From Delftia sp. PS-11 (GTDB lineage Bacteria; Pseudomonadota; Gammaproteobacteria; Burkholderiales; Burkholderiaceae_C), in assembly GCF_029870285.1 (NCBI RefSeq), contig NZ_JACSYA010000014.1:62001-126000 (forward strand): a stretch of DNA of 64,000 bases, given 5' to 3'. The notes under the pieces were generated by a model. That model was not told the DNA's origin, did not search any database, and saw only the letters and a program-made list of their open reading frames with translations. Shown here one piece after another: positions 47,712 through 50,495 of the stretch. A program made the translations under genes and the position numbers. Within the stretch, counting starts at the first letter, position 1; the number at the start of each line of letters is the position of its first letter.

Positions 47712-47815
47712 TGACCGGGCGCATACCGACTGCGGATGCTTGAGCCGCTACGCAACAGCGTAAAAGGGGAGTTTGAGGTGCAGCTGCCTGGCGCGCAGGG
47801 CTGTCTTGAAGACGG

Positions 47816-47913
47816 GTGACGAGCCTTACCCTCGGCACTGGTTTCACGGTTAGGGCTGCTTGGTTCCCCACCTGACCCGGTTGGCCGCTTCCCCATGCGA
47901 GGAGGCCCGTCAC
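47816..47913 (-). ncRNA. ffs: Signal recognition particle 4.5S RNA
   Basis: RNA scaffold of the signal recognition particle. On the minus strand the conserved Ffh-binding domain is plain: GGGTCAGG, then GGGGAACC forming the GGAA tetraloop, then AAGCAGCCC. The ends pair (GTGACGGGCCT with AGGCTCGTCAC), giving one long hairpin of about 98 nt, the small bacterial form. A TATAAT -10 sits 5 nt upstream of the proposed 5' end. Exact termini are estimated from pairing. Confidence 0.92.
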
Positions 47914-48014: not shown

Positions 48015-50033
48015 ATGTCTTATCTTGTGCTGGCCCGCAAATACCGTCCCCGCAATTTCTCCGAAATGGTGGGGCAGGAGCATGTCGTTCAGGCGCTCAC
48101 CAATGCGCTGACGCAGCAGCGCCTGCACCATGCCTATCTGTTCACCGGCACACGCGGTGTGGGCAAGACCACGGTGTCGCGCATTCTTGCCAAGTCCCTC
48201 AATTGCCAGGGCGCAGATGGGCTGGGTGGCATCACGGCCACGCCTTGCGGCGTCTGCGCCGCATGCACCGAAATCGACAGCGGCCGTTTTCCCGACTACA
48301 CCGAGCTGGATGCTGCCTCCAACCGGGGGGTGGACGAGGTGCAGGGCCTGCTGGAGCAGGCGGTCTACAAGCCGGTGCAGGGGCGCTTCAAGGTCTTCAT
48401 GATCGATGAAGTCCACATGCTGACGAACACGGCGTTCAATGCCATGCTCAAGACGCTGGAGGAGCCGCCCGAGTACCTGAAGTTCGTTCTGGCGACCACC
48501 GACCCGCAGAAGGTGCCGGTGACGGTGCTCAGCCGCTGCCTGCAGTTCAATCTGCGCCCCATGGCGCCGGAAACCGTACTGGAGCACCTGGGCCAGGTGC
48601 TGTCGCACGAGGGTGTGGCCTCCGAGCCCCAGGCACTGCGGCTGCTGTCGCGCGCAGCGCGCGGTTCCATGCGCGATGCGCTGTCGCTGACCGACCAGGC
48701 GATTGCCTTTGGCAGCGGCCAGCTGCGCGAGGATATGGTCCGCCAGATGCTGGGCAGCGTGGACCGCAGCCATGTATTCGCCCTCATTGATGCCCTGGCC
48801 CGTGGCGATGGCCGGGTGGTGGTGGAGACCTCGGAAACCCTGCGGCGCAACGGCCTGTCTGCGGCCTCGACGCTGGAGGAGATGTGCGCGGTGCTGCAGC
48901 GCATGGCCGTCGTGCAGGCCGTGCCGCAGATGGCAGCCGATGCCAGCGACCCCGATGCGTCCGAAATCGCCCGGCTGTCGGCCCTGATGCCGCGTGACGA
49001 AACCCAGCTGCTCTACAGCATCTGCCTGCATGGCCGTGGCGAACTGGGGCTGGCGCCCGACGAGTACGCTGCATTGACCATGGCTTTGCTGCGGTTGCTG
49101 GCCTTCAAGCCCGAGTCCATGGCCAGTGCCACGGATACGGCGGAAAAAAAAACTCCAGCGCTGACGGCCCCTCCGGCAGCGCGCATTGAGCCTGCCCCCG
49201 TTCCTGCTGCGCCTGAGCCTGCACCGGCTCCCGCTCCTTCGGTGCCCGCGCCCGTGCCGGTACCCGCGCCCGCGCCTGCAGCCCCTGCGCCCGGCCACCC
49301 TGAGCCTCAGCTGGCAGCGCCTGAGCCGGCCGCGCCCGTCCACGCCGTGCAGGATGCAGTCTGCGAATCCGTGCAGGGGCAGGACAGCATGCAGGCCGCT
49401 GCCGATGAGGCCGGTGCGACAGACATGCCGGACATGCCTGATGAGGGGGCCTGGGCCGGCATGCCCGAGGAAGCCTGGGCCGACGACGGGCGCTGGGCGG
49501 ACTCGGATGCCATGCCCGACCCGATGGCGGGGGAGCCTGCAGCGCTTGCGCCGCAGTTCCCGGTGCAAGACGGGCAGCCTCAGGAGCCCCGGCATGTGCC
49601 TGCACCGGCGCCTGCGGCGCCCACCGTGGAGCGCACGCCCGAGGGTGATATCTGGCATGGCGTGGTTCAGCAGCTGGTGCAGTCCGAGGCCGTGGCGGCC
49701 CTGGCGCGGCAGTTGGCGCTGCAGTCGCAACTGGTGGCCCGCGATGGCGATACCTGGACGCTGCGCGTGGAAAGCAGCTCGCTGAGCCAGCCCGCCACGC
49801 GCGAGCGGCTGCGTGCTGCGCTGGAGGCGGCCGGCCATGCCAGGCAGCTGCAGGTGGAGCAGGGGCCCGTGGTGGACAGTCCGGCCCGGCGCAATGCGGT
49901 GGCCAGCCACCAGCGCCAGTGCATTGCCGAGGACATCGTGATGCAGCACCCCCTGGTGCAGACGCTGATGCGCAGCCATGGCGCGAAAATCGTTGCCGGC
50001 AGCATCAAGCCCTTATCGATCCAGCCTGAGTAA
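48015..50033 (+). CDS. dnaX: DNA polymerase III subunits tau and gamma
   Basis: Clamp-loader ATPase; full-length tau (672 residues) also ties polymerase cores and helicase together. Domains I-II: Walker A GTRGVGKT (45-52), four-Cys zinc module (CQGADGL...CGVCAAC, about 64-86), SRC motif LSRCLQF; domain III to about 370; then a Pro/Ala-rich linker (about 380-450), acidic segment, and C-terminal polymerase/helicase-binding region. No Shine-Dalgarno sequence is visible; TAGAAT (48003-48008) lies 6 nt before the ATG, suggesting a leaderless message. An A9 run with hairpin at 49144 could give the shorter gamma. Confidence 0.95.
49143..49189 (+). other. Probable programmed frameshift/slippage site in dnaX
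   Basis: Nine consecutive A residues (49144-49152) are read in frame as GAA AAA AAA A. Five bases later comes a stem-loop: GCGCTG (49158-49163) with CAGCGC (49177-49182) and an inner CGG/CCG pair around CCCCT. A -1 shift adds 12 codons and stops at TGA 49187-49189, giving about 391 residues, i.e. domains I-III (gamma). A +1 shift stops after three codons (TGA 49162-49164). Confidence 0.65.
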
Positions 50034-50403: not shown

Positions 50404-50465
50404 GGCGCCTTTCTGGCGGCGGCGCCGTTTTCCCGCATGCCTGCGGGTTGTTGCGGCGCCCTCCG

Positions 50466-50495
50466 GCGATCTGCCCAGGCAGGTCGCTTTTTTTT
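50466..50495 (+). terminator. Intrinsic terminator between ybaB and recR
   Basis: GCGATCTGCC (50466-50475) pairs with GGCAGGTCGC (50478-50487), one G-T wobble, 2-base centre, followed by eight T (50488-50495). It would end dnaX-ybaB transcripts, although recR is usually in the same operon. Confidence 0.85.

Follow-up and report, generated by a model that had tools for sequence, protein, structure and literature searches.

The dnaX locus and its run of nine A's

The stretch of DNA analysed here, 64,000 nt of the Delftia sp. PS-11 genome (the window), carries dnaX on the forward strand at 48015–50033. The open reading frame encodes a full-length tau of 672 aa, identified by Pfam matches to DNA_pol3_delta2, DNAX_ATPase_lid, DNA_pol3_gamma3 and DNA_pol3_tau_5, all above their cut-offs, and by a match to TIGR02397 (dnaX_nterm) of 403 bits against a cut-off of 250. 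Domains I–III end at residue 366 and are separated by a Pro/Ala-rich linker from the alpha-binding domain V (residues 536–664 by Pfam). A ybaB-like gene and then a recR-like gene follow downstream, which is the E. coli gene order. The best named matches to the N-terminal 376 residues of DnaX come from Delftia (93–94%) and Comamonas (90%), and GTDB places both, together with the window genome, in one genus as far as the genus set shows. A small bacterial SRP RNA lies just upstream of dnaX on the minus strand (47815–47911; Rfam RF00169, 64.1 bits). A terminator-like stem with a T8 tail lies between the ybaB-like and recR-like genes at 50465–50488, where ∼1.2 such sites would be expected by chance in the region scanned.

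At the start of the linker, dnaX contains nine consecutive A's (49144–49152), a candidate slippage run within the forward-strand sequence GAA AAA AAA AC(T) at 49143–49154, read in frame as GAA AAA AAA ACT (residues 377–380). This is the sole A9 or T9 in the window and none of 100 shuffles contained one; the run is far beyond chance. An earlier note, made from the letters of this DNA, had reported the run, a 5-nt spacer, a GC-rich stem-loop and nearby stops in both alternative frames, and had predicted a gamma subunit of ∼391 residues and ∼42 kDa truncated at the end of domain III. The run, the spacer (CTCCA) and both stops are present at the coordinates given there. The first +1-frame stop is a TGA at 49162–49164 on the forward strand, which would be reached by A8 or A11 transcripts, and the first −1-frame stop is a TGA at 49187–49189 on the same strand, at which reading of A10 or A13 transcripts would end, as would reading after a −1 ribosomal shift. 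Product lengths computed for runs of A7–A13 agree with the size proposed: A10 gives 391 aa and 42.3 kDa, with 382 aa for A8 and 383 aa for A11. With the nearer stop, the predicted reading region of gamma spans 48015–49164 on the forward strand (382–383 aa) and contains domains I–III, whereas the ending at 49189 through the −1 frame would yield 391–392 aa. The predicted truncation falls just after the Pfam end of domain III, as had been suggested. We do not claim that the run is unique genome-wide: the 5.4-Mb assembly has ten A or T runs of at least nine, that of dnaX included, and seven of the other nine overlap some open frame of at least 100 aa, while two do not.

Conservation of the run and of stops in both wrong frames

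To follow the run across relatives, we scored each locus by its longest stretch of A's in the 600 nt that follow residue 345. An A9 is found in all 29 loci fetched from the same GTDB genus, and an A9 or A10 in all 80 loci of named relatives (77 A9 and 3 A10), with A9-bearing records that include Delftia, Comamonas, Acidovorax, Extensimonas, Alicycliphilus, Rhodoferax, Diaphorobacter, Pseudacidovorax, Ramlibacter, Hydrogenophaga, Variovorax, Giesbergeria and Curvibacter. A family sample of one genome per genus provided 115 usable loci out of 116 fetched, with the fragmentary genomes G143 and G155 left out; 64 of these have A9, one A10, one A8, two A6 and 47 none. The genus, named and family sets share species. 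Conservation among relatives had been named in the earlier note as a check, and the run is indeed kept, in 65 of the 115 family loci as well as throughout the genus and named sets. All A9 runs of the main sample share one phase, leaving A_AAA_AAA in frame. The order sample (63 loci fetched of 116 same-order genomes with a match) yielded five A9, one A10, three A8, five A6 and 49 without a run, and its A9 and A10 runs lie in mixed phases and mixed places. Loci L273, L292, L300, L304, L312 and L261 of this sample, from other families, carry scattered A9 or A10 runs or A_AAA_AAG with near stops, that of L261 being ∼520 nt past residue 345 and so deeper into the gene. The scattered runs are perhaps independent recoding sites.

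A FastTree analysis of 177 N-terminal sequences placed 70 rows on one branch with a support of 98. This clade comprises 65 rows with A9 or A10, two with A_AAA_AAG and a near −1 stop, and three with neither; one A9 row, L219, lies outside it. In the 65 run-anchored rows each of the nine A's carries 2.00 bits, and most linker columns carry 0.1–0.5 bits. Of 172 A9 rows, 165 have GAA as the codon preceding the run and 7 have CAA, and the codon following the run starts with A in 65 of 65. On this alignment evidence it is nine A's that are conserved rather than seven, those outside the heptamer being fixed too. The invariance argues for selection on the nucleotides themselves: of the N-terminal Lys codons of these genes, 159 of 622 are AAA, although elsewhere in the linker the figure is 172 of 339.

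The codons flanking the run are unusual on both sides. Ala codons just before GAA are GCT in 31 of 49 cases and GCC in one of 49 in the family sample; before Glu elsewhere in the same genes, GCC accounts for 268 of 390 and GCT for 56 of 390. Thr codons after the run are ACT in 38 of 50, versus 51 of 1570 N-terminal Thr codons. In the window, the two flanking codons are GCG (49140–49142) and ACT (49152–49154).

Stops were analysed in 66 A9 or A10 genes, that is, the family sample plus the window. Past the run, the −1 frame closes at a median of codon 6 and the +1 frame at a median of codon 2; the −1 stop of the window, at the 13th codon, is farther than usual. Both wrong frames meet a stop no more than 15 codons away in 62 of 66 genes, compared with a maximum of 11 of 66 in 300 trials of a null in which the downstream codons were shuffled. 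Codon-pair bias was considered as the origin of the out-of-frame stops and rejected: since a codon shuffle can be fooled in this respect, random real sites in the same genes were also drawn (2000 draws), and they gave the same result, with both stops near in no more than 12 of 65 cases for downstream sites and 11 of 66 for upstream sites. A +1 stop within 4 codons is present in 62 of 66 genes versus at most 16 of 66 at random sites; for the −1 frame, 60 of 66 genes have a stop within 8 codons, versus at most 21 of 65. Both stops are near in 28 of 29 other genus loci as well (29 of 30 with the window) and in 78 of 80 named loci; the genus counts given here are those after removal of one duplicate (L260 is L028) that a first tally of 30 genus loci had contained. 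The strongest downstream columns of the alignment are C, T, G and A at offsets 11–14 (1.89, 1.34, 1.23 and 0.99 bits), which form the +1-frame TGA. A near stop is missing in one frame in four of the 66 rows (L151, L165, L194 and L219). The pattern of stops indicates that those in both wrong frames are under selection.

A search of 120 family genomes for the pattern GAAAAAAAAANNCTGA gave 50 occurrences, spread over 49 genomes; 49 of the 50 lie inside the dnaX stretch fetched for the genome in question. The reversed control of the pattern has no occurrence in the same 120 genomes. The window genome has no match to GAAAAAAAAANNCTGA because its +1 stop lies two codons further on.

Flanking elements and the A_AAA_AAG genera

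The earlier note had also cast the downstream hairpin as a partner of the run. The GC-rich stem-loop GCGCTGACGGCCCCTCCGGCAGCGC, with a mismatch in its middle, is present in the 37-nt fold at 49158–49182 on the forward strand (six pairs, one mismatch, three pairs and a 5-nt loop; −14.8 kcal/mol), and is probably incidental or at most a genus-level feature. Its z-score is −1.53 for 37 nt, where 15 of 200 shuffles folded as well, −1.36 at 57 nt, and −0.31 with a different fold at 78 nt. The window hairpin is not clearly beyond chance and is close to the GC-rich background. Over the 66 genes, the sequence that follows the run has a mean fold z of −0.46 at 40 nt and −0.45 at 60 nt, which is slightly below all four control windows (−0.32, −0.05, −0.04 and +0.13) without being a strong signal, although the fold z is a blunt test by which the known stem of E. 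coli scores −0.92 against simple shuffles. Within the genus, the mean is −0.36 versus −0.18 to +0.03 in controls, the 5′ arm GCGCTG is common to 18 of 30 rows, and a stem opens at the hairpin position in 13 of 30 (40-nt fold) with varying partners; in the family it does so in 12 of 66. Judged by the 66 genes, the four control windows and the genus fold, the hairpin is probably not a stimulator across the clade, and a weak, mostly genus-level residual is left. The structure described in the note thus stood, whereas its role as a partner of the run is weak or unsupported, with a partial tendency in the genus and no clade-wide presence. We conclude that the stem does not belong to the signal across the clade, and it may be minor or incidental within the genus.

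Upstream of the site, we computed pairing to the 16S tail, using the anti-Shine-Dalgarno letters, with the E. coli dnaX gene sequence as a control. The window scores −3.7 kcal/mol and E. coli −7.4. Before the A9 runs of the clade, the mean is −4.1 kcal/mol versus −3.4 in control windows, and there is no Shine-Dalgarno signal at this position.

Two family loci without a long run have A_AAA_AAG instead, and these belong to the GTDB genera g90 and g28. In g90, where 27 of 31 genomes have a match and 25 loci were counted, the heptamer is present in 25 of 25; genome L358 has no heptamer, and genome G294, whose match is split between L359 and L360, has one and was left out of the count. L338 and L364 come from the genomes already represented by L175 and L215. 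The −1 stop of g90 lies at codon 2 in one locus, codon 4 in 22 and codon 6 in two, and its +1 stops lie at codons 7–172 (median 40). In g28, A_AAA_AAG is present in five of five loci, where the −1 frame ends at codon 2 and the +1 frame at codons 3–41. On the evidence of these alignments, seven bases, not nine, are kept in the A_AAA_AAG genera: the codon that holds the first A of the heptamer is CCA, TCA, GGA, GCA, CTA, GAA, ACA or GTA, always ending in A. A +1 stop within four codons is found in just two of the 30 A_AAA_AAG genes, versus 62 of 66 A9 genes (Fisher p 1e-17, although the rows are related and the true weight is that of one or a few events), and a −1 stop within 6 codons in 30 of 30. 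A conserved element from about −20 to −4 before the heptamer pairs with the 16S tail at −9.0 kcal/mol in g90 and −7.2 in g28, compared with −3.9 and −3.2 in the respective control windows. The dnaX of g90 and g28 therefore shares gene, place and −1 stop with the A9 dnaX, but differs in a heptamer whose first codon has two free bases, in an upstream element present in nearly all rows, and in a +1 stop that is not kept.

In rows L333–L357 and L361–L365 the element, ∼20 to 4 nt before A_AAA_AAG, reads roughly GGGGG[A/G]G[T/C]GCCG[C/T]CGAGCC. Its GGGAG-like part resembles the Shine-Dalgarno element of the E. coli frameshift, and the stretch up to the heptamer is conserved too.

In the trees, g90 and g28 fall among A9 rows with modest inner supports, and they apparently lie inside the A9 clade. 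A quick tree needs three changes for A_AAA_AAG, yet holding the 12 A_AAA_AAG rows together gave a better likelihood (p-AU 0.98), and the signal of the two genera may have a single origin. One g90 row, L357 (genome G300), is 78% identical to the query and stands apart from the other g90 rows in the tree with the same A_AAA_AAG signal.

A slippage model and its alternatives

The A9 run is probably a programmed transcriptional slippage site of the Thermus type from which a predicted gamma of ∼42 kDa would be made. RNA polymerase would slip on the nine templated A's and produce a mixed pool of dnaX mRNAs, of which those with A9 and A12 would encode full-length tau (672–673 aa), those with A8 and A11 would enter the +1 frame, and those with A10 and A13 the −1 frame. 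Both wrong frames would meet a nearby stop, yielding a gamma of 382–392 aa that keeps domains I–III and is without the alpha-binding domain V. The occurrence of slippage, its rate, and the production and use of gamma are what we infer here from comparative sequence data. A −1 ribosomal shift needs a −1 stop only, whereas insertion or omission of A's by RNA polymerase calls for both, and selection on the +1 stop therefore favours slippage. Taken together, the selected +1 stop, the invariance of nine rather than seven A's and the absence of a Shine-Dalgarno signal before the run favour a transcriptional event. The earlier note had held that either mechanism could work; A9 slippage and a short gamma are supported, and the choice between mechanisms is narrowed towards transcriptional slippage.

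Comparison with known systems points the same way. As described for Thermus thermophilus dnaX (PMC1088944; PMC5009743), the gene here has at least nine A's on the sense strand, tau in one uninterrupted frame and near stops in both other frames. In these accounts, the nine A's of the Thermus gene give rise to mRNAs with other numbers of A's, and gamma comes from those whose count differs from 9+3n (PMC1088944; PMC5009743). Thermus belongs to a different phylum, the comparison is made through published descriptions, and slippage in the present case is predicted. The E. coli dnaX has its site in a similar place, just after domain III, and makes gamma plus tau, the gamma of the window being a predicted one. 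It has A_AAA_AAG, an upstream AGGGAG, a −1 stop at codon 2 and a +1 stop only at codon 12, whereas the clade has A9, both stops near and, of the E. coli-type features, the near −1 stop but not an upstream Shine-Dalgarno-like stimulator; the window heptamer is A_AAA_AAA in phase and A_AAA_AAG is absent. The GeneTack cluster, as described in PMC3711429, contains two-ORF dnaX genes that likewise have poly(A), as A10, A9, A8 or A7, at the tau/gamma junction. In those genes tau requires a shift, whereas in the A9 dnaX tau is in frame. The sole mention of Delftia in that paper is a magnesium chelatase (PMC3711429). We found no report of dnaX recoding in the Delftia/Comamonas group among the open-licence papers listed, which does not prove novelty.

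Several observations count against slippage. According to PMC6260861, A runs induce less slippage by E. coli RNA polymerase than T runs do, at least seven T's and a still higher number of A's being required; poly(A) was not testable in that study as slippage was below detection, although the Thermus dnaX is described there as slipping in E. coli with both −1 and +1 shifts (PMC6260861). The four rows without one of the near stops and the distant −1 stop of the window also weigh against it. As the shared phase of the A9 runs in the main sample keeps A_AAA_AAA in frame, −1 shifting by ribosomes may contribute as well. Among the alternatives, −1 programmed ribosomal frameshifting on the A_AAA_AAA within the run, aided by the stem as in E. 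coli dnaX, would fit the phase of the heptamer, the near −1 stop and a stem 5 nt downstream that opens at this place in 13 of 30 genus rows, and g90 and g28 do carry A_AAA_AAG with a Shine-Dalgarno-like element. We consider it unlikely, however, because it leaves the two outer A's and the selection on the +1 stop unexplained, finds no Shine-Dalgarno signal before A9 and relies on a stem that is not clade-wide. Sliding of ribosomes on poly(A) in both directions, with the mRNA unaltered, would likewise use both stops and is reported for consecutive AAA codons in E. coli systems (PMC4363877). It is distinctly improbable here, since the same source describes a robust truncated product at A11 and little of it at A9 or A10, and two consecutive AAA codons, the number in the A9 site, as being read normally (PMC4363877). 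Least probable of all is the view that there is no programmed product, and that the A9 is a chance run or a conserved Glu-Lys-Lys-Thr/Ser motif with incidental or damage-limiting stops: the E-K-K peptide is constant as well, and stops after a slippery run could be damage control, but losing the run would be simpler, synonymous escape to GAG or AAG is never seen in A9 rows, the A's stay fixed although the residues before (E/Q) and after (T/S) them vary, and at this position two related genera have another recoding signal.

The importance of gamma and the breadth of its production are an old question in replication, and most bacteria outside enterobacteria and Thermus keep no dnaX frameshift signatures according to PMC3290774. 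Family loci without an A run of at least six (47 of 115), together with the three of 70 clade rows that have neither signal, indicate that the order can do without gamma of this origin. More than 60 sampled genera keep the signal near-absolutely, which argues that gamma is selected for there. On balance, we lean towards a whole clade, within the GTDB family of Delftia and Comamonas, that makes gamma by A9 slippage and in which at least one inner lineage has swapped to A_AAA_AAG frameshifting, keeping gamma. If this is true, the disappearance of selection for the +1 stop where the mechanism changed would be a signature, readable from sequence, that separates transcriptional from ribosomal recoding and could be used elsewhere. 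Such a swap would also allow two routes to the same protein ratio to be compared in close relatives.
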